Origin: Alphaproteobacteria bacterium
Lineage (GTDB): Bacteria > Pseudomonadota > Alphaproteobacteria > Reyranellales > Reyranellaceae
Reading direction: 5' to 3'
DNA length: 45,843 nt
Assembly: GCA_016870115.1 (NCBI GenBank)
Contig: VGCH01000024.1
Span: forward strand, 1-45,843
In this document: piece by piece, positions 10,353 to 23,956 of the stretch
Layout: every line of letters starts with the position of its first letter
Numbering within the stretch: position 1 is the stretch's first letter
Position numbers and translations under genes: made by a program
Notes under the pieces: model-generated
Told to the model about the DNA's origin: nothing
Seen by the model: the letters and a program-made list of their open reading frames with translations, nothing else
The model's database searches: none

Positions 10353-11054
10353 TCAGACCCCGAGATAGCGGTGCTGCAGCGCCCGGTCGCCCGCGAGTTC
10401 GGCGGAGCGGCCGGTCCACACGACGCGTCCTTTCTCGACAATGTGGTGACGGTCGGCGAGGCGGATCAGCGCGCTGAGGTTCTTGTCGATCACCAGGATC
10501 GACTGGCCCTCGCGCTTCAGGAGCGCGAGGCAGTTCCAGATTTCCTGACGGATCAGAGGCGCCAGGCCTTCGGTCGCCTCGTCGAGGATCAGGAGCTTTG
10601 GATTGGTCATCAACGCGCGGCCGACCGCCAGCATCTGCTGCTCGCCGCCGGAGAGCTGGTTGCCCATGTTGGCGCGCCGCTCGGCGAGCCTCGGGAAGAG
10701 CGCCAGCACGCGATCGAGCGTCCAGGGCGCGGCGCGTGCCTGGCGGTTGCCCGAGGCCGCGACCAGATTCTCAACGACGCTGAGATTGGGAAAAATCTGC
10801 CGACCCTCGGGCACCAGGCCGAGCCCCAGCCGTGCGACACGGAACGATGGCAGAGTCTCGATTCGTTGCCCGCCGAAGGCGATCTCGCCCCTGCGCTCGG
10901 CCACCAATCCGAGGATGGCGTTGACCGTGGTGGTCTTGCCCATGCCATTGCGGCCCATCAGGGTCGCGACCTCGCCCTCGGCCACATCGAGTTCCATGCC
11001 GAACAGCGCCTGGCTGGCGCCGTAGAAGGCGTCGAGCCCGCGGACCTTCAGCAT
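10353..11054 (-). CDS. livF: Liv-type ABC importer ATPase LivF (system 1)
   Basis: A 233-residue ATPase with Walker A GRNGMGKTT, signature LSGGEQQMLAVGRAL and Walker B LLILDEA; the Walker B glutamate is followed by TEGLAP, as usual in LivF. GRNGMGKTT is the common LivF variant of the P-loop. The ATG at 11054 overlaps the LivG end by 7 bases. Last gene of the livKHMGF-1 operon. Paired with LivG-1 it drives uptake of a hydrophobic amino acid or an organic acid. Confidence 0.9.
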   Translation of the reverse strand: MLKVRGLDAFYGASQALFGMELDVAEGEVATLMGRNGMGKTTTVNAILGLVAERRGEIAFGGQRIETLPSFRVARLGLGLVPEGRQIFPNLSVVENLVAASGNRQARAAPWTLDRVLALFPRLAERRANMGNQLSGGEQQMLAVGRALMTNPKLLILDEATEGLAPLIRQEIWNCLALLKREGQSILVIDKNLSALIRLADRHHIVEKGRVVWTGRSAELAGDRALQHRYLGV

Positions 11055-11806
11055 GGCATCGCCTCGTCGCCGAGATAGGCCTCGCGCACCGCCGGATCGC
11101 GGCGGATCTCGTCGGGCGTGCCGGTGGCGATGGCGCGGCCATAGACGAGCACCGTGATGCGGTCGGCCAGGCGAAACACCGCCTCCATGTCGTGCTCGAT
11201 CAGCAGGATGCCGCGCCGCTCCTTGAGGCCGGCCAGCAGCGCGATCATGCGCTGCGACTCGTCGGGACCCATGCCGGCCATCGGTTCGTCGAGCAGCAGC
11301 AGACGCGGTGCACCGGCGAGCGCCATGGCGATCTCGAGCTGGCGCTGCTCGCCGTGGCTGAGGTTGGCCGCGAGCGTATCGGCCCGCGCGTCGAGCCCGA
11401 CGGCGGCGAGCCCCGCCCGCGCCGGTACGCGCAGGCTCGCATCGTGCCGCGCGTCGGCGAAAAAGCGGAACGAGTGGCCGCGATGGGCTTGCACCGCAAT
11501 CGCGACATTGTCCTCGGCGGTGAAATCCCGCAGCACCGACGTGATCTGGTAGGAGCGCGCCATGCCGAGCCGCGCGCGCTGCGGCGTCGCGAGGCGCGTG
11601 ATGTCGAGGCCCGCAAAGCGCACACTCCCGGCGTCCGGCGCGAGCTGGCCGGTGAGCTGGTGGACGAGCGTCGTCTTGCCCGCGCCGTTGGGACCGATCA
11701 GGGCGTGAATCTCGCCCTCGCGCACATCGAGCGAGACGTTGTCGGTGGCGACGAGGCCGCCGAAGCGCTTGAGAAGTCCGGTGACGGACAGCAGCGGCTC
11801 AACCAT
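11048..11806 (-). CDS. livG: Liv-type ABC importer ATPase LivG (system 1)
   Basis: A 252-residue ATPase with Walker A GPNGAGKTT, signature LSHGEQRQLEIAMAL (the second Gly of LSGG is His, as in many LivG proteins), Walker B LLLLDEP and the LivG-type end EAYLGDE. I prefer the ATG at 11806 (MVEPLLSV), with GGAGG 5 bases upstream; an ATG at 11821 adds five residues and has a weak site. The start overlaps the LivM-1 end by 8 bases. Confidence 0.9.
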   Translation of the reverse strand: MVEPLLSVTGLLKRFGGLVATDNVSLDVREGEIHALIGPNGAGKTTLVHQLTGQLAPDAGSVRFAGLDITRLATPQRARLGMARSYQITSVLRDFTAEDNVAIAVQAHRGHSFRFFADARHDASLRVPARAGLAAVGLDARADTLAANLSHGEQRQLEIAMALAGAPRLLLLDEPMAGMGPDESQRMIALLAGLKERRGILLIEHDMEAVFRLADRITVLVYGRAIATGTPDEIRRDPAVREAYLGDEAMPC

Positions 11807-12794
11807 GGCCGCCTCCGCCATCCCGCCGGCCGCCCAGCAGCGAGTCGATGCCGCCCTTGGCGTAGAGCGCGATCAGGATGAGGATCGGCCCGAAGACGAT
11901 CTGCCAGTACTCGCCCCAGCCTTTGCGAAACAGGTCGATCACCGGCTTCAGCGATTCCTCGAGCACGAAGAAGGCGACTGTGCCCCACACCGGGCCGAAG
12001 ACGGTGCCCATGCCGCCCAGCACCACGATCACGATCAGGTCGCCCGACTTCACCCACGACATCATGGCGGGCGAGATGTAGGCGTCGTGATTGGCGAGAA
12101 GCACGCCCGAGAGCCCGCCCAGTGCGCCCGATATCGTGAAGGCCGCGAGGCGATAGCGGAACACCGGAAAGCCGAGCGAGGCCATGCGCACATCGTTCGA
12201 CTTGGCGCCGCGCAGCACGAAGCCGAAATGCGAGTTGGCGAAGCGGGCGGAGAACCAGAGCACCAGGCCCAGCAGCGCGAGGCAGAGCCAGTAGAAGGCT
12301 GCCCGATCTCGCAGGTCGATCAGGCCGGGAAAGCGGCTGCGCGAGATATTGAGGCCATCGTCGGCGCCATAGGCCTCGAGCCCCACGCCCACGTAGTAGA
12401 CGAGCTGCGAGAAGGCGAGCGTGATCATGATGAAGTAGACGCCGCGGGTTCGCAGCGAGAGCGCGCCGATCGCCGCGGCCCATAGCGCGGCCGCCAGTAC
12501 GCCCACCGGCCACTGCACCCAGCCCAGTACGACGCCGTGATGGCCGAGAATGCCCACCGCATAGCCGCCGATGCCGAAGAACACGGCGTGGCCGAAGCTC
12601 ACCATGCCGCCATAGCCGAGAATGAGGTTGAGGCTCGCCGCGGCGATCGACCAGATGACGACGCGGGTGCCGATCGACAGCAGGTAGCGCTGGTCGAAGG
12701 CTTGCGTCAGCAGGGGCAGTGCGATCGCGAGTGCGGCGAGCGCGATCACCACGAGCCCGCGTCTCGTGCGCAGCGCCTGGATCATCGCGCCCAT
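11799..12794 (-). CDS. livM: Liv-type ABC importer permease LivM (system 1)
   Basis: A 331-residue permease with about nine to ten membrane helices. LNLILGYGGMVSFGHAVFFG and GVYFIMITLAFSQL are LivM hallmarks, and GGMGTVFGPVWG is the conserved permease loop. The C-terminal ~10 residues are Gly/Arg-rich. The start is one base after the LivH stop. Forms the channel with LivH-1. Confidence 0.9.
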   Translation of the reverse strand: MGAMIQALRTRRGLVVIALAALAIALPLLTQAFDQRYLLSIGTRVVIWSIAAASLNLILGYGGMVSFGHAVFFGIGGYAVGILGHHGVVLGWVQWPVGVLAAALWAAAIGALSLRTRGVYFIMITLAFSQLVYYVGVGLEAYGADDGLNISRSRFPGLIDLRDRAAFYWLCLALLGLVLWFSARFANSHFGFVLRGAKSNDVRMASLGFPVFRYRLAAFTISGALGGLSGVLLANHDAYISPAMMSWVKSGDLIVIVVLGGMGTVFGPVWGTVAFFVLEESLKPVIDLFRKGWGEYWQIVFGPILILIALYAKGGIDSLLGGRRDGGGGHG

Positions 12795-12795
12795 C

Positions 12796-13710
12796 TCAGG
12801 TGCGCGGCCCGAACAGGCCGGTCGGTCGCCATACCAGAACGCCCGCCATCACCAGATAGATCAGCACCTGCGAGATCGCGGGCGCGGCCGTCGAGGCGGC
12901 GGCGTTGCTGAGGAAGGTCTTCAGCAGATCCGGCAGGAACGCGCGGCCGAAAATGTCGATTTGGCCCACCACCATGGCGGCGATGAAGGCGCCCTTGATC
13001 GAGCCGATGCCGCCAATGACGATGATGACGAAGGCAAGGATCAGGATGTCGTCGCCCATGCCGATCTTGACCGAAAGGATCGGCGCCGCCATCAGCCCGG
13101 CCAGCGCCGCGAAGACGGCCCCGAGCCCGAAGACCAGCGTGAACAGCAGATTGATGTCGACCCCCAAGGCGCCGATCATGCGCCGGTTGGAGGCGCCGGC
13201 GCGGATCAACATGCCGGTCCGCGTGCGCTGAACCATCCAGGCGAGCAGCAGCGCCACGACGCCGCCGACCACGATGATGGCGAAGCGGTAGGCCGGGTAG
13301 GGCAGGCCCGGCAGGATCTCGACCGTGCCGCTCAGGAAAGCGGGAAGGGCGATGCTCTTGCCGGCGGGTCCCCAGATCACGCGCACCAGCTCGTTGAAGA
13401 AGAGGATCAGCCCGAAGGTCGCCAGCACCTGGTCGAGATGGTCGCGGGCATAGAGTCTGCGGATCACCACAGCCTCGACGACGGCGCCGAGCGCCAGCGC
13501 GGCGGGCAGCGTAAGCAGCGCGCCCAGCACGAAGCTGTCGGTCCAGCCGATCAGCGTCCAGGCGAAGTAGGCGCCCATCATGTAGAGCGAGCCGTGCGCC
13601 AGGTTGACGAGGTCCATGATCCCGAAAGTGAGCGTGAGTCCGGCCGCCAGCAGGAACATCAGAAGTCCCAGCTGCACGCCGTTCAGGATCTGGATCGCAA
13701 GATAGTCCAT
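12796..13710 (-). CDS. livH: Liv-type ABC importer permease LivH (system 1)
   Basis: A 304-residue permease. The N-terminal run LNGVQLGLLMFLLAAGLTLT, then GIMDLVNLAHGSLYMMGAY and the loop GGIGSIKGAFIAA, identify LivH. I chose the ATG at 13710; the TTG five codons upstream is in frame but unlikely. About eight membrane helices. Lies 67 bases downstream of livK-1 in the same operon. Confidence 0.9.
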   Translation of the reverse strand: MDYLAIQILNGVQLGLLMFLLAAGLTLTFGIMDLVNLAHGSLYMMGAYFAWTLIGWTDSFVLGALLTLPAALALGAVVEAVVIRRLYARDHLDQVLATFGLILFFNELVRVIWGPAGKSIALPAFLSGTVEILPGLPYPAYRFAIIVVGGVVALLLAWMVQRTRTGMLIRAGASNRRMIGALGVDINLLFTLVFGLGAVFAALAGLMAAPILSVKIGMGDDILILAFVIIVIGGIGSIKGAFIAAMVVGQIDIFGRAFLPDLLKTFLSNAAASTAAPAISQVLIYLVMAGVLVWRPTGLFGPRT

Positions 13711-13777
13711 CGTCCGTCCGCTCAAACGAAACGGGAGCGCGTCGCCGCGCTCCCGTCTGCTGGCACCGCGCGGCGCC

Positions 13778-14956
13778 TTACTTCATCGGGCACTTCTCGA
13801 AGTGCGGGTCCTTGGCCTTCGAGATGGCGGTGGCGATGGTCTTCACCGTCATCTTGCCATCGGCATCCTTCACCGCTTCCTGGATGTAGAAGTTCTGGAT
13901 CGGGAAGTTGTTGGTGTTGAAGCTGAAACCGCCGCGCACCGACTTGAAGTTGGCCTTCTTGAGCTCGGCCCGCACGCGATCCTTGTTGGCCAAGTCGCCC
14001 TTCAGCGCTTCGGCGGCCGACGCGATCAGCATGATCGAGTCGTAGGCCTGCGCACCGTAGTAGGACGGATAGTCGTTGTGCTTCTTGCGGAAGTCCGCGA
14101 CGTAACGCTTGTTGGCGTCGTTCGGCAGATCGTTCACCCACTGCTGCGCGCCGAGCGAGCCCAGCGCCAGCTCGCCCTGCTGGGGCAGCGTGATCGCGTC
14201 GATCGAGAACACCTGGTAGAGCTTGATCTGGTCCTTGAGGCCCGCCTGCACGAACTGGCGGACGAACTGCACGCCGTGCGCACCGGGATAGAACACGAAC
14301 ACGCCTTCCGGCTTGGCGGCGCGGATCTTGGCGAGCTCGGCCGAGAAGTCGAGCTGGTCCGGCCACTTGGTGAGGTCCTCGCCGGCCACCTGTCCCTTGA
14401 AGGTACGGCGCACGCCAGCGAGCATGTCCTTACCCGCGGCGTAGTTGCCGGCCATCAGATAGAGGCTCTTCACGCCGCGATCCTGGAGGTACTGGCCCAT
14501 CGCCATTGGCGTCTGGTCGTTGTTCCAGGAGGTCGAGAAGAAGTTCTTGTGGCAGAGCTCGCCTGCAATCTGCGACGGCCCGGCGTTGGCCGAGATCAGG
14601 ATCGTGTCGGCCTCATCGGTCACCGCCTTCAGCGACGCCAGCAGAACGTTCGACCAGATGTAGCCGGTGACGAAGTTCACCTTGTCCTGCTGCACGAGCT
14701 TCTCGGACTTCTGCTTGCCCACGTCCGGCTTGAACTGGTCGTCCTCGAAGATCAGCTCGATCTTCTTGCCGCCGGCCATGCCGCCCAGATGCTCGACCGC
14801 GAGCTCGGCCGAGCGACGCATGTCCTGGCCGATCGCGGCTTGCGGGCCGGAGAAGGTGCTGATGAAGCCGATCTTGATCGTGCTCTGTGCCAGGGCGCCG
14901 GACGCGCCGAAGGCCATGGCCGCGATCGTTACGGCGCCCAAAATCCCGTACTTCAT
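13778..14956 (-). CDS. livK: Liv-type periplasmic substrate-binding protein LivK (system 1)
   Basis: A 392-residue type-1 periplasmic binding protein. The N-terminus MKYGILGAVTIAAMAFGASG with LAQ cleavage is a Sec signal; the mature start is STIKIGFISTFSGPQAAIGQD. The ligand pocket segments ANAGPSQ and STSWNNDQTP resemble receptors for aromatic or organic acids rather than leucine, which is a weak inference. The ATG at 14956 has GGGAG about 9 bases upstream. First gene of livKHMGF-1, divergent from the CoA transferase at 15066. Benzoate is a sensible candidate because box clusters of other bacteria carry Liv-type importers. Confidence 0.88.
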   Translation of the reverse strand: MKYGILGAVTIAAMAFGASGALAQSTIKIGFISTFSGPQAAIGQDMRRSAELAVEHLGGMAGGKKIELIFEDDQFKPDVGKQKSEKLVQQDKVNFVTGYIWSNVLLASLKAVTDEADTILISANAGPSQIAGELCHKNFFSTSWNNDQTPMAMGQYLQDRGVKSLYLMAGNYAAGKDMLAGVRRTFKGQVAGEDLTKWPDQLDFSAELAKIRAAKPEGVFVFYPGAHGVQFVRQFVQAGLKDQIKLYQVFSIDAITLPQQGELALGSLGAQQWVNDLPNDANKRYVADFRKKHNDYPSYYGAQAYDSIMLIASAAEALKGDLANKDRVRAELKKANFKSVRGGFSFNTNNFPIQNFYIQEAVKDADGKMTVKTIATAISKAKDPHFEKCPMK

Positions 14957-15065
14957 AAGCGGTCGCTCCCTGTTGGCGTTGTCGCTATAGAAGCGGAAAA
15001 GACCACGCGGAACAACGATAGAATGCCCGCCGCGCGGCGCGCAGCGGGCGAGGGGGAAGGGCGGC

Positions 15066-16286
15066 ATGGTGGGTCTGCTGGAGGGCATTCGGGTGCTCGA
15101 CTTCACCCAGGTGATCGCGGGGCCGGCCTGTACGCGATTGATGGCCGAGCTGGGGGCGGACGTCGTCAAGGTCGAGCTTGCCCCCGCCGGCGACTATGCC
15201 CGCGGGCTCCCGATGGTGCGCGATGGCCGCAGCGCCTACTTCGCGCAACACAACCAGGGCAAACGCAGCCTTTGCCTCGACCTGCGTCGGCCGGCCGCCC
15301 GCGCGCTGGTCGAGCGGCTCGTCGAGCAGGCCGACGTTCTGGTCGAGAATTTCTCGCCCGGCGCCATCGCGCGGCTGGGGTTCGGCTGGGAGCGCGTCCA
15401 CGCGCTCAATCCGCGGCTTGTGATGTGTTCCATCTCAGCATTCGGCCAGGAGGGACCGCTCGCGTCGCTGCCGGGGTTCGACTACATCGCCCAGGCCTAT
15501 TCTGGAATCACGAGCATGATCGGCGATCCCGACGGGCCGCCGGCGCTGACCGGCTTTGCGGTCGGCGACACCGGCACGGGCATCACGGCCCTCGCCGCCA
15601 TCAATGCCGCCCTGTTCGCCCGCGAACGCGGCGGCGGTGGGCGCCATCTCGACATTTCGATCCTCGACTTCTACTTCCACGCCCACGAGATCGGCGTGGA
15701 GATGGCGAGCCTCGGCGCCTGGACACCGCATCGCAGCGGTCAGCACCACGGCATGGTGGCACCGCTTGGCATCTTCGCCGCCGGCGACGGCTATCTCTAC
15801 ATCGTGGTGCTGCAGCCGATGTGGCCGCGACTGTGCGCCGCCATGGGCCGACCGGAGCTGGAGCACGATCCGCGCTTCGCAACGGCGGCCGCGCGTGTCA
15901 CCCACAAGGACACGCTCAACCCGATTGTGCAGGCGTGGCTTGCGGGTCTGCCGGATCGCGCGACCGCGCTCGCGATCCTGGAGAAGGCGCGGGTGCCGGT
16001 GGCGCCGGTGCTCAGTGTCGCCGAGGCGATGGCCCACCCCCATCTGGTCGGTCGCGCCACGGTGCGTGAACGCGACGATCCCGTGCTGGGGCGCTTCCAG
16101 GTCACAGGCAACCCGATCCGCGACCTCACCGGAGGGGACACGCGGCTGCCCGGACGCGCGCCATTTCTGGGCGAGCACAATCGGGCGATCCTCTCGGAAC
16201 TGGCCGGGCTCGACGCGGCCACCCTCGACGCGCTGGAGCGTGACGGCACGCTGGCGAGCGAGCCGCTGCCGGTCAGCGCAGCCTGA
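15066..16286 (+). CDS. Class III CoA transferase (CaiB/BaiF family)
   Basis: A 406-residue protein of the formyl-CoA/crotonobetainyl-CoA transferase family, which moves CoA between carboxylic acids through an aspartyl-CoA intermediate and works as an interlocked dimer. The opening LLEGIRVLDFTQVIAGPACTR, the GADVVKVE motif and GDTGTGITALAAINAALFAR are typical; the nucleophilic Asp is expected in GDTGTG (residues ~167-172) or the preceding region. GGAAGGGCGGC before the ATG includes a usable ribosome site. Divergent from livK-1 and overlapping tail to tail with the benzoate-CoA ligase (16273-16286). Substrate unassigned; aromatic acids or, more speculatively, sulfinopropionate are possible. Confidence 0.85.
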   Translation: MVGLLEGIRVLDFTQVIAGPACTRLMAELGADVVKVELAPAGDYARGLPMVRDGRSAYFAQHNQGKRSLCLDLRRPAARALVERLVEQADVLVENFSPGAIARLGFGWERVHALNPRLVMCSISAFGQEGPLASLPGFDYIAQAYSGITSMIGDPDGPPALTGFAVGDTGTGITALAAINAALFARERGGGGRHLDISILDFYFHAHEIGVEMASLGAWTPHRSGQHHGMVAPLGIFAAGDGYLYIVVLQPMWPRLCAAMGRPELEHDPRFATAAARVTHKDTLNPIVQAWLAGLPDRATALAILEKARVPVAPVLSVAEAMAHPHLVGRATVRERDDPVLGRFQVTGNPIRDLTGGDTRLPGRAPFLGEHNRAILSELAGLDAATLDALERDGTLASEPLPVSAA

Positions 16287-17829
16287 AGCGCTGGATCTTT
16301 CCGGTCGCGGTCTTGGGCAGTTCGGACACGTACTCGACCCAGCGCGGATACTTGTAGGGCGCGAGCGTCTTCTTGCAGAGCGCCATCAGCTCTTCGGTCA
16401 GCGCCGCACCGCCGCCGCCCGCCTGTTTCAGCACAACGATCGCCTTGGGCTTGGTGAGACCGTCGGCATCGGCGTGACCGACGACGGCGGCCTCCAGTAC
16501 CGCGGGGTGCCCGATCAGGCAGTTCTCAACTTCGACCGGCGAGCACCAGATGCCGCCCACCTTCAGCATGTCGTCGCTGCGGCCTTCGTAGATGTAGTAG
16601 CCGTCGGCGTCCTGGCGGTAGGTGTCGCCGGTATTCAGCCAGCCATCGACCATCGTCTCGGCGGTCTTCTCCGGCTTGTTCCAGTAGTAGCGCGCCGCCG
16701 ACTCGGCGCGGATCCACAGTCGCCCGCTGGCGCTCGGCGCCACGGCCGCGCCGCTCTCGTCGAGGATGCGCGCCTCGTAGCCCGGTACCGGCCGGCCGCT
16801 CGTTCCGGCGCGGTGATCGTCCAACCGGTTGCCGATGAAGATGTGCAGCGCCTCTGTTGAGCCGATGCCATCCAGGATGACGGTGCCGGTCCGTGCCTTC
16901 CAGCGCTCGAACAGCGTTGCCGGCAGCGCCTCGCCGGCGGAGACGCAGGCGCGCACAGAGGAGAAGTCGCGCCCGCCCGCTTCCAGAGCGGCGAGCTGCG
17001 CGGCGTAGAGCGCGGGCACACCGTAGTAGATGGTCGGCCGGAACCGCTCGATCGTCTCGAAGGTCGTGTCGGGTGTCGGCCGGCGATCATCGAGCACCGC
17101 CGTGGCGCCGACCCAGAGCGGGAAAGTCATCGCGTTGCCAAGGCCGTAGGCGAAGAAGAGTTTGGCAGCGGAGTAGCAGACGTCGCTCTCGCGCACGCCC
17201 AGCACCCGCACGCCATAGAGTTCGCTGGTCACCACCATGTCGCGCTGAGCATGGACGGCGCCCTTGGGCCTGCCGGTCGAGCCGGACGAATAGAGCCAGA
17301 AGCAATCGTCCTCCGCCGCGGCGAGGCGCGGCGCGAGCGTCGCGGGTGCGCGCGCCAGCTCGGTCAGGAACGCGTCGACCGTCACCGCCGGCGGTGCCTT
17401 GGCGCCGAGCTGGCGGAGCGCCGGCTCGATCTCGCCGGCATATTCGCCGGAGTAGACGACGAGGCCGCAGCCGCAATCCTCGATCATGTAGGCGTAGTCG
17501 GCGGCGCGCAGCAGCGTGTTGGGCGGCACCGGCACGATGCCCGCCTTGATGGCACCCCAGAATAGATAGAAGAACGCCGGGCAGTCCTTCACCACCATCA
17601 GCACGCGGGCGCCGGGAACGAGTCCGCGCGCGACCAACGCGTTGCCGGTGCGGTTCACGCGCTCGGCCAACTCGGCGTAGGTGACCGTCTCCGACGCGGT
17701 ACGGATCGCTGGCTTTGCGCCGCGGCCCTCGGCGAGGTGCCGGTCTATGAACGGCACCGCGACGTTGAAGCGGGCGGGCAGCGCGACCTTGAGGTCGGCC
17801 GAGAAGGAAATGCCGGCGGGCAGGGGCAT
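16273..17829 (-). CDS. bclA: Benzoate-CoA ligase family protein
   Basis: A 518-residue adenylate-forming enzyme. A3 loop YSSGSTGRPKG at 180-190, A5 motif GIGSTEALHIF, A7 (LNTGDTYRQDADGYYIYEGR region), A8 DDMLKVGGIW and the A10 lysine in PKTATGKIQR (K511) are all present. GSTEALHIFIGNR and WCSPVEVENCL are typical of benzoate/4-hydroxybenzoate-CoA ligases (BadA/BclA). It forms benzoyl-CoA from benzoate, ATP and CoA, the entry step of the box pathway. Last gene of the leftward boxC-boxB-TLP-Bug-bclA series; its 3' end overlaps the oppositely oriented CoA transferase by 14 bases. Confidence 0.88.
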   Translation of the reverse strand: MPLPAGISFSADLKVALPARFNVAVPFIDRHLAEGRGAKPAIRTASETVTYAELAERVNRTGNALVARGLVPGARVLMVVKDCPAFFYLFWGAIKAGIVPVPPNTLLRAADYAYMIEDCGCGLVVYSGEYAGEIEPALRQLGAKAPPAVTVDAFLTELARAPATLAPRLAAAEDDCFWLYSSGSTGRPKGAVHAQRDMVVTSELYGVRVLGVRESDVCYSAAKLFFAYGLGNAMTFPLWVGATAVLDDRRPTPDTTFETIERFRPTIYYGVPALYAAQLAALEAGGRDFSSVRACVSAGEALPATLFERWKARTGTVILDGIGSTEALHIFIGNRLDDHRAGTSGRPVPGYEARILDESGAAVAPSASGRLWIRAESAARYYWNKPEKTAETMVDGWLNTGDTYRQDADGYYIYEGRSDDMLKVGGIWCSPVEVENCLIGHPAVLEAAVVGHADADGLTKPKAIVVLKQAGGGGAALTEELMALCKKTLAPYKYPRWVEYVSELPKTATGKIQRFRLR

Positions 17830-17905
17830 GGCGGGCTCGGGCGAAAGGCGGAACGCGTTCTCTACAACGCTTCCGGCCGTCCGCGAAGGCCGCCGCGCGG
17901 CTGAA

Positions 17906-18871
17906 TCAGAGCTTGGCGCCGGATGCCTTCACCGCCGCCTGGAAGCTCTCCACCTGGCGGGCGACATAGGCGGCGAACTCGGCCGAGCTCATCGGCTTTG
18001 TGACGAAACCGAGCTCGCCGAGGCGCTCGACGATGCGCGGCACGGTCAGCACTTCGGCGAGCGCACGATGCAGGCGCGCCTGCGCCGCGGCGGGCATGGC
18101 CGCGGGCGCCGACAGGCCGACGAAGTTCTCCGCCACCAGCCGCGGATGGCCAAGCTCGCCCACCAGCGGAACGTCGGGCGCCGAGGGCGCGCGCTGGCTG
18201 GAGGTGAGCGCGATCATGCGCAGCTTGCCGTCGCGGGCGAGCGGCAGCACTTCGGTCAGCGTCACGACCGCGAAGTCGAGCTGGCCCGCCATCATGTCCT
18301 GGAACATCGGGGCCGCGCCGCGATAGCCGATATGCTACATCGAGAGCCCGAGCTCGGCCTTGAACATCTCGCCGATGATGTGGCCGATCGAGCCCTGACC
18401 GCCCGAGCCGAACGGCACCACCTTCCCCTGTCCTTTGATCCAGGCGACCAGCTCGGCCATCGTCTGCGCCGGCACGGTGGGACGGACGACGAAGGCATTG
18501 GCGACCGAGCCGATATAGGCCACGTGCGCGAAGTCCTTGAGCGGATCGTAGGGCGGCTTGTCGAACAGATAGGGCGCGATCGAGATCGGCGCAGAGTTCG
18601 AGAGCATCACGGTATGGAAATCGTCGCGGGCGGCCAGAACGAAGTTGGCGCCGATCGTCGTGCCGCCGCCGGGCTTGTTGTCGACGATCACGGTCTGGCC
18701 GAGCTTCTCCTGAAGCGGGCCCGCGATCACCCGGGCAGCTGCGTCCGAGGCGCCGCCCGGCGGAAAGGTGACGATGATCTTGAGCGCCTGGGTCGGCCAC
18801 TGCTGGGCCCGTACGCCTGGCGCTACGGCAAGGGCGGCGACGGAGGCGAGGACGGTTCGGCGCGCGATCAT
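17906..18871 (-). pseudogene. Bug-family (tripartite tricarboxylate transporter) receptor, interrupted by an amber stop
   Basis: The frame encodes a typical Bug receptor: signal peptide MIARRTVLASVAALAVAPGV-RAQ, then IIVTFPPGGASDAAAR, NKPGGGTTIGANFV and GSGGQGSIGHIIGEMFKAE. At codon 179 (18337-18335) there is an in-frame TAG, after which the same frame resumes with HIGYRGAAPMFQDMMAGQLD, matching the family's 'HVPYRG' region, and runs to 17906 (ASGAKL stop). No frameshift is needed: one base change explains it. The intact paralogue at 38143-39147 has Leu at the equivalent position (GVDMLHVPYRG), so TTG to TAG is one possible origin. A good ribosome site (GAGGGA) precedes the ATG. No TctA/TctB membrane genes are nearby. 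Sequencing error or stop read-through cannot be excluded. Confidence 0.85.
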
Positions 18872-18938
18872 GGATTTCCCTCTGGAACGGTCGGAGGTCC
18901 GAGCCATGCGAATGCCGCGCCAGTGCGCAAGGCCGATC

Positions 18939-19271
18939 TCACGCCCCGCCGCGAAACAGCGAGAAGCCCCAGGGCGTCATCTTGAGCGGCAGGTGATAGT
19001 GCTGGCCGAGATCGGCGACGCCAAAGCGGTAGGGCACGGTCTCGAGAAACGCCGGTGTGGGCAGCGCGATCCCCTGAGCGCGGTACCAGTCGCCGACATG
19101 GAACAGCGCCTCGTAGGAGCCCGTCTCGGGCGTCGGGGCATCGAGCGTGCCCGGCGCGGCGGTCCGGCCGTCGACGAGAAGTCGACCATCCGATCCGCGC
19201 AGCTCGACCCTGAGGCCGGCCGCGGGCAGGCCGCGCGAGACGTCGTAGACGTGGATGGAGATGCCGCTCAT
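18939..19271 (-). CDS. Transthyretin-like protein (annotatable as hydroxyisourate hydrolase) in the box operon, degenerate active site
   Basis: A 110-residue protein of the transthyretin-like/HIU hydrolase fold. H7 in SIHVYD and H91/H93 in GQHYHLPL match two conserved histidine sites. However, the usual DGR arginine (TNxDGR) is replaced: TAAPGTLDAP at 37-46 puts Thr42 there. The C-terminal YRGS signature is FRGG(A), losing the Tyr and Ser. The UraH half of the fusion at 35721-36608 retains all of these, so the differences are real for this gene. Its ATG overlaps the boxB stop (TGATG at 19273-19269), implying translational coupling. Urate degradation is therefore an unlikely role; action on a box-pathway compound or a structural/ligand-binding role is inferred. 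Confidence 0.82.
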   Translation of the reverse strand: MSGISIHVYDVSRGLPAAGLRVELRGSDGRLLVDGRTAAPGTLDAPTPETGSYEALFHVGDWYRAQGIALPTPAFLETVPYRFGVADLGQHYHLPLKMTPWGFSLFRGGA

Positions 19272-20689
19272 CAGTTGAACCGCACGTACTCGAAATCGGC
19301 CGCCTGATTGTTGATGCCACGCGCGGGCGGCGCGATCCAGTGGGCATACTTGCCCGGCTGAACGACGGCGGGGCCCATCAGCGACGTGATGTACGCGCGG
19401 TCCTCGTCGGTCGGCAGCCAGCCCGCGACGCGGGCCTGCCAGTCGGCCTCGGACAGGAGCTTGCCATCGGGCGAGATGCGGCGGTCGGCGAAGGCGCCGA
19501 TCCGGCGGTTGAACCCGCGGTGCGGCAGCTTCAGCTCGAACGCGACGCCCGCGCGCTCGAGGATCTTGTTCCAGCGCAGCACGCCCTTGGCGCAGTCCTC
19601 GACGTAGTCGGTGCGCAGGCGCTCGTTCAGTGCGTGCAGCGCGGGGACCGCCTTGCGCACGATGCGGCCTTCCTCGGCCACCTCGATCTCGTAGGCCGCG
19701 CCCGCCAGGACATGATCGTCGTCGATCCGGGTCTCGAGGAAGCGACCCTTCACACCCTGGGTGTAGTAGTTCGCGGCATTGGTCGAGGCTTCCTGGCCGA
19801 AGAGATCGAGCGACACCGAGAAGTGGAAGTTGAGGTACCTCTGGATCGTCGGCAGATCGATCGCGCCCAGCGCCCGCAGGTCGTCGGTGCGATGCTCGCG
19901 CATCAGCTCGGCTGTGCGCTGCACGATGCGGCCGACGCCGGACTCGCCCACGAACATGTGGTGCGCTTCCTCGGTCAGCATGAAGCGGCAGGTCCGCGAC
20001 AGCGGGTCGAAGCCCGACTCAGCCAGCGAGGCGAGCTGGTACTTGCCGTCGCGGTCGGTGAAGAAGGTGAACATGAAGAACGACAGCCAGTCGGGCGTCT
20101 TCTCGTTGAAGGCGCCGAGGATGCGCGGCTTGTCGGGATCGCCCGAATGGCGCTCCAGCATCGCCTCGGCCTCCTCGCGGCCATCGCGGCCGAAATAGGC
20201 GTGCAGGAGATAGACCATCGCCCAGAGATGGCGGCCTTCCTCGACATTCACCTGGAAGAGATTGCGCAGGTCATAGAGCGAGGGCGCGGTCCCTCCGAGC
20301 AGGCGCTGCTGCTCGACCGAAGCGGGCTCGGTGTCGCCTTGCGTGACGATCAGCCGGCGCAGGGTCGAGCGCAGCTCGCCCGGCACCTCCTGCCAGGCCG
20401 GTTTGCCCTTGTGGTCGCCGAAGGCGATCGTGCGCTCGGGATCGCGGTCGGCGAGGAAGATGCCCCAGCGATACTCCGGCATCTTCACATGCCCGAAATG
20501 CGCCCAACCATTGGCGTCGGTCGAGACGGCAGTGCGCAGATAGACGTCGAAGTTCAACGTGCCGTCCGGCCCCATGCCCTTCCACCAATCGAGGAAGCGC
20601 GGCTGCCAGTTCTCGAGCGCGCGTTGCAGGCGGCGGTCGCTCGCCAGGTCGACGTTGTTCGGGATGAGCTGGGTATAGTCGATCGACAT
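19271..20689 (-). CDS. boxB: Benzoyl-CoA 2,3-epoxidase, oxygenase component BoxB
   Basis: A 472-residue di-iron oxygenase that, with the reductase BoxA, O2 and NADPH, converts benzoyl-CoA to 2,3-epoxybenzoyl-CoA. The ferritin-like iron ligands can be read off: E121, E151 and H154 (EGRH), D212, E241 and H244 (EAHH). These are each one residue higher than the ligands I recall for Azoarcus evansii BoxB. The N-terminus (IDYTQLIPNNVDL) and C-terminus (WIAPPARGINNQAADFEYVR, 20 residues) are family hallmarks. GGAGGGG stands 4-10 bases before the ATG. It lies 20 bases downstream of boxC. BoxA is not in this window, so its reductase must be encoded elsewhere or replaced. Confidence 0.95.
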   Translation of the reverse strand: MSIDYTQLIPNNVDLASDRRLQRALENWQPRFLDWWKGMGPDGTLNFDVYLRTAVSTDANGWAHFGHVKMPEYRWGIFLADRDPERTIAFGDHKGKPAWQEVPGELRSTLRRLIVTQGDTEPASVEQQRLLGGTAPSLYDLRNLFQVNVEEGRHLWAMVYLLHAYFGRDGREEAEAMLERHSGDPDKPRILGAFNEKTPDWLSFFMFTFFTDRDGKYQLASLAESGFDPLSRTCRFMLTEEAHHMFVGESGVGRIVQRTAELMREHRTDDLRALGAIDLPTIQRYLNFHFSVSLDLFGQEASTNAANYYTQGVKGRFLETRIDDDHVLAGAAYEIEVAEEGRIVRKAVPALHALNERLRTDYVEDCAKGVLRWNKILERAGVAFELKLPHRGFNRRIGAFADRRISPDGKLLSEADWQARVAGWLPTDEDRAYITSLMGPAVVQPGKYAHWIAPPARGINNQAADFEYVRFN

Positions 20690-20709: not shown

Positions 20710-22386
20710 TCAGGCGCGGGCGCGGTCGTAGCGCGCCTGGCGGCCGGTGCCGTAGAGCTTGAGCGCGCCGTCCGCGCCAGTGGCGTTGGGGCGCTGGAAG
20801 ATCCAGTTCTGCCACGCCGAGAGGCGGGCGAAGATCTTGGTTTCCATCGTCTCGGGCCCCGCGAAGCGCAGATTGGCTTCCATTCCCGTGAGGCCGTCCG
20901 GCGAGAAGCTCGCCCGCTCCTCGACGGCGAGTCGCACCTCGTCCTCCCAGTCGATATCGTCGGGCGTGAAGGTGACCAGGCCCGCCTCGTCGGCGGCGGC
21001 GGCGTCCAGCGCCTCGCCGATGCGCGCCTTCAATTCATCGGGTTGGCCCGGCGCGGCGAGGAAGCGCGACTGCAGGCGCGTGAGGCCGTTGCCCATCGGG
21101 TAGGGGCCGAAATTCGCGGCCGTGAGATGGAGCGCCGCCGGCGCCGCGTTGGATCCCTCCATCGCGCCGTCCAGCATGTAGCTGCGGTCGCAGGCGAGCA
21201 CGAGTTCGAGCAGCGTGCCGGCGAAGCAGGAACCGGGCTCGACCAGCGCGATCAGGCTGCGCGCGCTGACGTCCAGGCGCTTCAGCGTGCGCCGCCAATA
21301 GAGACCGATCTCACGGCCGAGCCAGTGATCGCCGAGGCGGGCCATCAGGGCGTCATAGGCCTGGACCAGCGCGGCATCGCCCTGGCTGTGCAGCACCCAG
21401 GTACCGATCGCCGTTTCGTTCAGCCGCAGATGCATCATCGCGTCGTCGAGCGCGCGCACGAGCGCCAGCGGCCAGAACGCAACGCCCTGCGCCTGCACGG
21501 CCGCGGCATCGGCCGGCGGCGGCGCGTCGGGGCCCGCGAGCCGCAGATCCGCGGCGCGGCGCTCGCGGTCGATCTCGACGGTGAGGTGCGGATAGACGAT
21601 CGTGTCGCCGTCGATGCGGCGCGCGAGTTCCGGCCAGGCGATGCCACGCGCATCCGACGGGCGCGGGGAGGCCGCGGCGGCGCGCTCGGCGATGACACGG
21701 GTCTCCTCGGCGAGCTTGCTGGGGGCGATCAGCCGGTCGACCAATCGCCACGCCTGGGCGCGCTTGCCGCGCATGCCCTCGGTCGTGGTGCAGAAGAAGT
21801 CCGCGTGATCGCGGCGCACCATCCGCTTGTCGACCAGCCGCGTGAGGCCGCCCGTGCCCGGCAATACCGCGAGAAGGGGCAGCTCCGGCAGTGACACCGC
21901 CGAATTGCCGTCGTCGGCGAGCAGGATGTCTTCGCAGGCAAGCGCCAGCTCATAGCCGCCGCCCGCGGCGATGCCGTTGATCGAACAGATGTAGCGTTGG
22001 CCCGACTCGCGCGAGGCTTCCTCGATGGCGAGCCGCGTCTCATTGGTGAACTTGCAGAAGTTCACCTTGTGATGGTGCGAGGACAGACCCAGCATGTTGA
22101 TGTTCGCGCCGGAGCAGAAGATGCGGTCCTTGGCCGAGCGGATCACGACCGCGCCGACCTCGGGGTGCTCGAAGCGCAGCCGCTGGACGGCGTCGGCGAG
22201 CTCGATGTCCACGCCGAGATCATACGAGTTGAGCTTCAGCTTGTAGCCGGGGCGGAGCCCGCCGTTCTCGTCGATGTCCATGGTGAGGAACGCCACCCGA
22301 CCTTCGATCGAGAGCTTCCAATGGCGATAGCGCGCGGGCGCGGTGCGGACGTCGATCGGCGCTTCGGCGGTGGCGGTCTCGGACAT
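20710..22386 (-). CDS. boxC: 2,3-epoxybenzoyl-CoA dihydrolase BoxC
   Basis: A 558-residue crotonase-superfamily enzyme. It hydrolyses 2,3-epoxybenzoyl-CoA to 3,4-dehydroadipyl-CoA semialdehyde and formate, opening the ring without a second oxygenation. The first crotonase-like domain carries FCSGANINMLGLSSH (oxyanion loop) and SINGIAAGGGYELALACEDI; a second, diverged crotonase-like half fills residues ~280-540. The length, double of ordinary crotonases, is normal for BoxC. The ATG at 22386 follows GGGGAG closely. It is the first gene of the leftward box operon; the promoter region shared with the GNAT gene contains a perfect inverted repeat. Confidence 0.95.
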   Translation of the reverse strand: MSETATAEAPIDVRTAPARYRHWKLSIEGRVAFLTMDIDENGGLRPGYKLKLNSYDLGVDIELADAVQRLRFEHPEVGAVVIRSAKDRIFCSGANINMLGLSSHHHKVNFCKFTNETRLAIEEASRESGQRYICSINGIAAGGGYELALACEDILLADDGNSAVSLPELPLLAVLPGTGGLTRLVDKRMVRRDHADFFCTTTEGMRGKRAQAWRLVDRLIAPSKLAEETRVIAERAAAASPRPSDARGIAWPELARRIDGDTIVYPHLTVEIDRERRAADLRLAGPDAPPPADAAAVQAQGVAFWPLALVRALDDAMMHLRLNETAIGTWVLHSQGDAALVQAYDALMARLGDHWLGREIGLYWRRTLKRLDVSARSLIALVEPGSCFAGTLLELVLACDRSYMLDGAMEGSNAAPAALHLTAANFGPYPMGNGLTRLQSRFLAAPGQPDELKARIGEALDAAAADEAGLVTFTPDDIDWEDEVRLAVEERASFSPDGLTGMEANLRFAGPETMETKIFARLSAWQNWIFQRPNATGADGALKLYGTGRQARYDRARA

Positions 22387-22403
22387 GGCTCCCCGATCTC
22401 CAA

Positions 22404-22423
22404 TTCAGTAATTGCGTACTGAA
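22404..22423. promoter_or_regulatory. Operator-like perfect inverted repeat in the box promoter
   Basis: TTCAGTA-ATTGCG-TACTGAA has perfect 7-bp arms around a 6-base spacer and sits 18 bases upstream of boxC and 42 bases upstream of the divergent GNAT start. The local sequence is unusually AT-rich for this genome. The likely ligand is the Rrf2-type regulator encoded at 22911, on positional grounds. It does not resemble the TGCA-containing sites reported for BoxR. Confidence 0.65.
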
Positions 22424-22464
22424 ATACCTATTTACTTTTCACCCGGCAAGGGCAAAGTTTCCCC

Positions 22465-22914
22465 GTGTCCAAGCCTCTGCTCCATCTGCGCGCCGCTGAG
22501 CCGGCCGATCTGGCGGCGATTTCCGGTCTCGACGCTCGGCTGACGGGCTCGGCCAAGACCGCCTACTGGCAAGGCATGCTGGAACGGTACGCGGGTGGTC
22601 CGCCGGAGCGGCAGTTCCTGGTGGCCGAGACCGCTCAAGGCACGCTGGCGGGGTTCGTCGCGGGCGAAGTCCGGGCCTGGGAGTTCGGCCAACCGCCGGC
22701 CGGCTGGATCTTTGCCATCGAGGTCGATCCCAAGCTGCGGCTGGGCGGCGTCGGGTCGGCGCTATTCGAGGCGCTGGCCGAGCGCTTTCGCGCCCAAGGG
22801 GTGGATCGGTTGCGAACGCTGGTCGACCGCAAGGACCATTCCATCCTCGCGTTCTTTCGCGCCCAGGGAATGACCGCGGGACCCTCGCTGCAGCTCGACC
22901 GGGCGATCGGATGA
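22465..22914 (+). CDS. GNAT-family N-acetyltransferase (BadL-like candidate)
   Basis: A 149-residue GNAT-fold protein: IEVDPKLRLGGVGSALFEAL carries the acetyl-CoA pyrophosphate loop (R/Q-x-x-G-x-G as RLGGVG), and AFFRAQGM is the usual C-terminal strand-helix. It starts with GTG at 22465 and its TGA overlaps the next gene's ATG (ATGA). The next gene is an Rrf2 regulator; a GNAT beside an Rrf2 repressor next to benzoate genes recalls badL-badM of Rhodopseudomonas palustris, where I recall the acetyltransferase affecting regulation. The substrate here is unknown: a small aromatic amine or a protein are both possible. Confidence 0.82.
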   Translation: MSKPLLHLRAAEPADLAAISGLDARLTGSAKTAYWQGMLERYAGGPPERQFLVAETAQGTLAGFVAGEVRAWEFGQPPAGWIFAIEVDPKLRLGGVGSALFEALAERFRAQGVDRLRTLVDRKDHSILAFFRAQGMTAGPSLQLDRAIG

Positions 22915-23306
22915 AGCTCCAGACCGCGACACGCCTTGGTCTCTACGCCGTCCTCGAGCTTGCCCGCACGCCGGATCGCACGCTCTCGGCGGCGGAGCTC
23001 GCCACCCGCTTCGATGTCTCTGCGCATCATCTTGCCAAGGTGCTGCGCACCTTGGCCGACGCCAAAATGGTCGCCGGCGAACGCGGCGCGACGGGCGGCT
23101 ATCGCTTCATCGCCAACCCAAGGCGCACGACGTTGATGGACATCGTGGCGCTCTTCGAACCCGCGCCCGGCGCCCGCGCTCCCGAACCCGGCGAGGCCAC
23201 CGACATCGGCCGCGCGCTCGGCCGCATCCTGGTGGAGATCGACGAGATCGCCGAGGCGACACTAAGGTCGGTGAGCGTCGACACCTTATTGAAGAGGGGG
23301 CTGTGA
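22911..23306 (+). CDS. Rrf2-family transcriptional regulator without Fe-S cysteines (BadM-like candidate)
   Basis: A 131-residue regulator. The winged helix runs from about residue 26 to 67: SAAELATRFDVSAHHLAKVL followed by the wing GATGGYRF. The three cysteines that bind an iron-sulfur cluster in IscR and NsrR are absent; there is no Cys at all, so it should sense a small molecule rather than iron, NO or redox. BadM of R. palustris, a repressor of benzoate genes, is also an Rrf2 protein. The gene is in a GNAT-Rrf2-HAD operon divergent from boxC, with the palindrome at 22404-22423 in the shared promoter. Confidence 0.87.
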   Translation: MKLQTATRLGLYAVLELARTPDRTLSAAELATRFDVSAHHLAKVLRTLADAKMVAGERGATGGYRFIANPRRTTLMDIVALFEPAPGARAPEPGEATDIGRALGRILVEIDEIAEATLRSVSVDTLLKRGL

Positions 23307-23956
23307 TGCTCCCGCGCGTGCCGCGCGCCGTCGTGTTCGATATGGACGGATTGCTGTTCGACACCGAGGCGCTCTACCGCCGCACCTTCGTCGCGGCGGG
23401 CACGGAGGTCGGCTGCGTCGCGAGCGACGACATGTTCCTGGCCCTGGTCGGCACGCCCTGGACGCTCGGTCGCGCGATGCTGCTGGAGCGCCACGGCCCC
23501 GCCTATCCGGTGGATCGCCTCGCCGAGGTCTGGATGCGCCGCTTCAAGGAGCTGGCCGAGACCGATCTCGCGATGAAGCCCGGCGTGTCCGAGCTGCTGG
23601 ACCGGCTCGATGCACTTGCGCTCCCGCGTGCGATCGCCACCTCATCGTCGCGCCGCACCGCCGACCATCACCTGGCCGCCCACGCGCTCACCCACCGGTT
23701 CCACGCGCTTGCCTGCGAAGGCGACTATGCCCGGGGCAAGCCTGCGCCGGATCCGCTCCTGGAGGCGGCGCGCCGTCTCGGCGTCGATCCCGCTCATTGC
23801 CTCGCGCTGGAGGACTCCCACCACGGCGTCCGGGCAGCCCACGCCGCCGGCATGATGGCGATCATGATCCCCGACCTGATCCCGCCGACGGAAGAGCTGC
23901 GGAAGTTGGCGCTCGTGCTGCCCTCGCTGCACGAGGTGCGGCGGCTGCTGGACTAG
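23306..23956 (+). CDS. HAD-superfamily phosphatase (CbbY/PGMB-like)
   Basis: A 216-residue haloacid dehalogenase-like hydrolase. Motif I is VFDMDGLLFDTE (nucleophile and acid/base Asp), motif II is the Ser/Thr in AIATSSSR, motif III Lys lies in RGKPAPDP and motif IV is LEDSHHG. The cap domain fits subclass IA. Substrates of this group are phosphorylated sugars or metabolites such as phosphoglycolate; the sequence does not fix one. The ATG at 23306 overlaps the Rrf2 stop (TGATG); the GTG at 23303 is an in-frame alternative that adds one residue. Convergent with the acyl-CoA dehydrogenase; the 75-base gap holds nothing I recognise. Confidence 0.86.
   Translation: MLPRVPRAVVFDMDGLLFDTEALYRRTFVAAGTEVGCVASDDMFLALVGTPWTLGRAMLLERHGPAYPVDRLAEVWMRRFKELAETDLAMKPGVSELLDRLDALALPRAIATSSSRRTADHHLAAHALTHRFHALACEGDYARGKPAPDPLLEAARRLGVDPAHCLALEDSHHGVRAAHAAGMMAIMIPDLIPPTEELRKLALVLPSLHEVRRLLD

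Follow-up and report, generated by a model that had tools for sequence, protein, structure and literature searches.

The closest described counterpart of the locus considered here is the BadM-BadL system of Rhodopseudomonas palustris, which pairs an Rrf2-family repressor with an aminobenzoate N-acetyltransferase for the badDEFGAB operon (PMC6191541). BadM binds a badD promoter fragment spanning −191 to +21, and BadL is a GNAT enzyme that acetylates aminobenzoates, the products of which release BadM (PMC6191541). The statement in the original prediction that badL is a GNAT gene adjoining badM agrees with this report. R. palustris BadL is 41% and 47% identical to two homologues with measured aminobenzoate acetylation. 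A badL mutant is partly rescued by the GNATs of Magnetospirillum magneticum and Geobacter metallireducens, which also acetylate aminobenzoates in vitro (PMC6191541). The described regulator of the aerobic box pathway, BoxR of Betaproteobacteria, is a fusion of an XRE domain with a shikimate-kinase-like domain and has a TGCA-N6-TGCA operator. In an open literature search we found no paper mentioning boxC, Rrf2 and benzoyl-CoA together.

The window, that is, the whole stretch of 45,843 nucleotides analysed here, is one contig of a 3.56 Mb genome from the family Reyranellaceae. On its minus strand it encodes boxC (2,3-epoxybenzoyl-CoA dihydrolase, 20710-22386; TIGR03222, 894 bits against a cut-off of 712), boxB (benzoyl-CoA 2,3-epoxidase subunit, 19271-20689; TIGR03225, clearly above the NCBIfam cut-off) and, downstream of boxB, a benzoate-CoA ligase (16273-17829), which is apparently part of the boxCB operon. 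Divergently from boxC, across a 78-bp gap (22387-22464), the plus strand encodes a 149-residue GNAT acetyltransferase of the BadL type (22465-22914; Acetyltransf_1, 43.5 bits) and a 131-residue, cysteine-free Rrf2-family regulator of the BadM clade (22911-23306; Pfam, 78.6 bits), the start of the Rrf2 gene lying inside the end of the GNAT gene with an overlap of 4 bp. The open reading frames, the domain matches and the gap thus bear out the layout that had been read from the DNA alone. A gene for a HAD-family phosphatase (23303-23956, plus strand) overlaps the Rrf2 stop codon and is likely co-transcribed with the Rrf2 gene; its part in the module is putative. Further along the minus strand, genes of a branched-chain-amino-acid-type ABC transporter (periplasmic protein, two permeases and two ATPases; 10353-15169) presumably serve the uptake of aromatic acids. 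In the interval that separates boxB from the ligase (17830-19270) no gene was recognised as boxA, and relatives have the same layout as far as seen. In the same interval, the gene following boxB resembles a 5-hydroxyisourate hydrolase (transthyretin-like), judging from its PLKMTPWGFSLFRGG ending, and a TctC/Bug-type solute-binding-protein gene on the minus strand is interrupted by an in-frame TAG at 18335-18337. Relatives align across this region, and the interrupted gene may represent either a pseudogene or a sequence error.

To place the regulator, we compared it with BadM and BadL from Rhodopseudomonas genomes located via their benzoyl-CoA reductase. The window's Rrf2 protein shares 51-52% identity with Rhodopseudomonas BadM and 26% with the sole Rrf2 paralogue that BLAST matched in its own genome. 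It has no cysteine among its 131 residues, hence no Fe-S cysteine triad, and its scores with the equivalog models of IscR (30 bits), NsrR (33), RirA (25) and CymR (45) compare with cut-offs of 182-208. By identity, models and tree alike, its closest kin is Rhodopseudomonas BadM, ahead of all four of these families and of the paralogue. A quick tree recovered the window's family as one clade (support 100) inside the BadM group. The GNAT shares 37-40% identity with Rhodopseudomonas BadL, about the level of the assayed Magnetospirillum BadL (41%; PMC6191541), and its acyl-CoA loop is intact (RLGGVG, with the invariant R92). Its predicted model (pLDDT 87) matched GNAT folds in the PDB, and these matches were generic, giving no clue to the substrate. 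Taken together, identity, tree, gene pairing and a common operator architecture assign the two genes to the BadM/BadL type, as originally proposed.

The pairing is conserved well beyond the window. In the family, boxC scores over the cut-off in 69 of 75 genomes, and the divergent GNAT-Rrf2 pair is present in 38 of the 41 relatives for which the surroundings of boxC were fetched, the three other contigs ending too early. Outside the family, 18 box loci have the pair facing boxC. In a class-wide sample boxC was present in 80 of 385 genomes; among 75 box loci fetched outside the family in Alphaproteobacteria, 39 have a BoxR-like gene, two an adjacent BadM pair and 34 neither, and none of the 39 BoxR-like loci has an adjacent BadM pair. 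These 34 loci (among L065-L139) presumably answer to other regulators. BoxR was not found in the window's genome, where the one protein matching the SKI domain is a stand-alone AroK, encoded beside AroB, so the search for a BoxR gene elsewhere in the genome, suggested together with the original prediction, came back empty. The intergenic region 22387-22464 contains no TGCA and hence no TGCA-N6-TGCA operator for BoxR. When named genomes were scanned for relatives of BadM, 80 loci from several phyla came up, in nearly all of which a GNAT gene adjoins the Rrf2 gene. Neighbouring genes at these loci encode benzoyl-CoA reductase, box enzymes (mostly in Rhodospirillales assemblies) and proteins resembling those of phenylacetate or 4-hydroxybenzoate metabolism. 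Viral contigs yielded no relatives. At one locus (L237) a single BadM-BadL pair is flanked by a box operon on one side and by benzoyl-CoA-reductase-like genes on the other and, judging from this arrangement, may control both the aerobic and the anaerobic route. Anaerobic benzoyl-CoA reductase clusters (L159-L163, L265-L280) repeatedly contain a second pair of GNAT genes, in tandem and sometimes fused, that differs from BadL.

Within the 78-bp gap, the original prediction had pointed to a perfect palindrome, TTCAGTA-N6-TACTGAA. It is indeed present, exactly at 22404-22423, and simple arithmetic gives a chance of a few percent for a perfect repeat with 7-bp arms and a short spacer in 78 bp. As a regulatory element, however, it does not hold: it is missing from the aligned boxC-GNAT promoters of the family and was rejected as the operator. 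The element that is conserved overlaps the palindrome: an imperfect inverted repeat of 28 bp in the boxC-GNAT intergenic region, GTAATTGCGTACTGAAATACCTATTTAC (22408-22435), which we propose as a BadM-type operator; the aligned promoters have GTAATTCGGTACtgAAATACsTATTTAC in common. This pattern matched in 70 of the 75 family genomes, against none for the reversed control pattern, and the five genomes lacking a match are those with boxC absent, fragmented or truncated at the 5′ end. In the window's 3.56 Mb genome the site at 22408-22435 is the only one. In eight relatives inspected, the benzoate-CoA ligase gene stands apart from boxCB and has a second copy of the operator immediately upstream of it; these separate ligase operons lie kilobases from the GNAT-Rrf2 pair.

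Outside the family the operator approaches a full inverted repeat, GTAAAT-n-GGTA-N6-TACC-n-ATTTAC. Using a symmetrised matrix built on the family operators, we scored box promoters beyond the family, the rows also including the window itself (L003). All 18 with an adjacent pair scored 23.5-39.3, whereas the 73 without one had a median of −9.3 and reached 20.1 at most, with 8.6 as the next value; the peak score among 2620 dinucleotide shuffles was 15.8. The 20.1 outlier (locus L126, genome G198) has the operator upstream of boxC and no adjacent regulator, and the same genome encodes a BadM on another contig (L311, 175.6 bits), which suggests that this box operon could be controlled in trans. 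The conserved operator thus tracks the regulator. Its position in relatives is also regular: in 20 of 26 box promoters examined, TTGACA starts 28-29 bases before the operator, a spacing that puts the −10 hexamer directly against it. With the operator immediately after the −10, a protein bound to it would sit on the start site, where repressors usually act. The TTGACA (−35) of boxC has decayed in the window and in part of its sister genus, leaving the window's own boxC promoter undefined; a scan with the consensus promoter found nothing there.

The same sequence element occurs at anaerobic loci, where it stands before many bcr operons. Among 87 non-box loci with BadM, 48 have a site scoring at least 15, compared with an average of 3.1 for shuffled maxima, and such a site is present at eight of ten bcr loci without BadM in view. 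When twelve genomes were then searched, eleven proved to encode a BadM-like protein (175-220 bits). The exception is a 94% complete genome (G377), which has a strong operator site at its bcr locus (L161) and in which the search revealed no clear BadM. Four Rhodopseudomonas species have a weak match in the same position, some 98-127 bp ahead of the badD start (score 9.1, null mean 4.4), with the 28-bp layout and the core in common. This weak match falls inside the −191 to +21 fragment to which BadM binds (PMC6191541). The matrix found no match at several pad/hcr-type (phenylacetate-type) loci or at Magnetospirillum loci.

The original prediction saw here an anaerobic-type control module placed on the aerobic pathway. 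That a BadM/BadL-type pair sits on a box operon stands; a one-off transplant finds no support, for the arrangement is kept all through the family and recurs in many further Alphaproteobacteria, and in the quick tree Rhodopseudomonas BadM nests among box-linked Rhodospirillales (support 86). With all rows included, a single aerobic clade was rejected (p 0.0007), although unlabelled short contigs inside the group weaken this test; when these were left out, the data did not reject a split between aerobic and anaerobic rows (p 0.21). The module may have passed from anaerobic to aerobic pathways or the other way round.

Judging from sequence, we consider it very probable that the Rrf2 protein is a BadM-type repressor acting on 22408-22435 and released by a small molecule that the GNAT makes. 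Bound to the 28-bp repeat, which overlies the beginning of the boxC promoter and adjoins that of the GNAT-Rrf2 genes, it would hold down the operon of box and benzoate-CoA ligase genes as well as its own gene. The BadL-type GNAT would synthesize the inducer, for which an N-acylated aromatic amine, e.g. acetamidobenzoate, is the most likely candidate. In the presence of aromatic acids, the acylated product would release the repressor and the operon would be expressed. That the protein binds and represses, that it controls its own gene and what the inducer is chemically are here carried over by analogy from Rhodopseudomonas. In vitro, the effect of acetamidobenzoate on BadM requires 10 mM (PMC6191541), so the natural inducer may be a different compound. 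We also entertain, as a rather doubtful variant, that the GNAT is an inducer synthase using an aryl-CoA (e.g. benzoyl-CoA) as acyl donor and thereby reporting activated aromatic acid to the repressor. If true, this would explain why the pair occurs at benzoyl-CoA, phenylacetate and 4-hydroxybenzoate pathways, both aerobic and anaerobic, and why acetyl-CoA and aminobenzoate give weak activity and weak effectors.

The high effector concentration can also be read in favour of a regulator that senses benzoyl-CoA or another CoA-ester of the pathway directly, the GNAT being a detoxifying enzyme or an unrelated passenger. Benzoyl-CoA is the inducer of BzdR of Azoarcus (PMC6678401), and aminobenzoates do not obviously arise as intermediates in the box pathway. 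The conservation of the GNAT next to the Rrf2 gene across several phyla is nevertheless much for a passenger, and an R. palustris badL mutant fails to grow on benzoate unless badM is deleted too (PMC6191541); we regard direct sensing as somewhat unlikely. A different question is whether the box genes are the target at all. The operator stands between both transcription units, and the box loci having neither BoxR nor an adjacent BadM imply that other regulators exist, so the pair might act on nothing but its own genes or the downstream HAD gene, leaving the box genes to an unlinked regulator. The operator copies before distant benzoate-CoA ligase operons and the genome with an operator at boxC and BadM elsewhere make this highly improbable.

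As to the sign of regulation, some Rrf2 proteins, e.g. IscR, activate genes, and the window's protein could accordingly be an activator or a dual regulator of boxC instead of a simple repressor. We deem this unlikely to a considerable degree, given the start-site-covering, repressing position of the operator in relatives and the fact that BadM is a repressor (PMC6191541). Membership in the same superfamily (TIGR00738) is what speaks for an Fe-S or NO sensor of the IscR/NsrR/RirA type standing near the box genes by chance. With zero cysteines and with IscR, NsrR, RirA and CymR model scores far below their cut-offs, an Fe-S sensor was rejected, and we attach practically no probability to this explanation.

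These findings indicate that a two-gene unit, composed of a repressor and a putative inducer-making enzyme, is common to oxygen-dependent and oxygen-free benzoate degradation. With the proposed operator, aromatic-acid regulons could be predicted at little cost in many uncultured bacteria, and the broad GNAT-Rrf2 pairing turns the real product of the GNAT into a directly testable question. Compared with BoxR, the window's Rrf2 protein likewise stands at a box operon, but the two are unrelated proteins and BoxR is absent from this genome. The BadL/BadM homologues of M. magneticum and G. metallireducens are similarly GNAT-Rrf2 neighbours, although the operator motif was not found at the related Magnetospirillum loci examined. 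Unlike its R. palustris counterpart, the window's pair faces the aerobic epoxidase pathway, in a genome for which the class search returned no benzoyl-CoA reductase subunit of the BadD type, and it is divergent from its target, with one common operator region. What it has in common with R. palustris BadM-BadL are the same two protein families encoded side by side, benzoyl-CoA metabolism as the predicted target and, though the Rhodopseudomonas match is weak, the same 28-bp operator layout.
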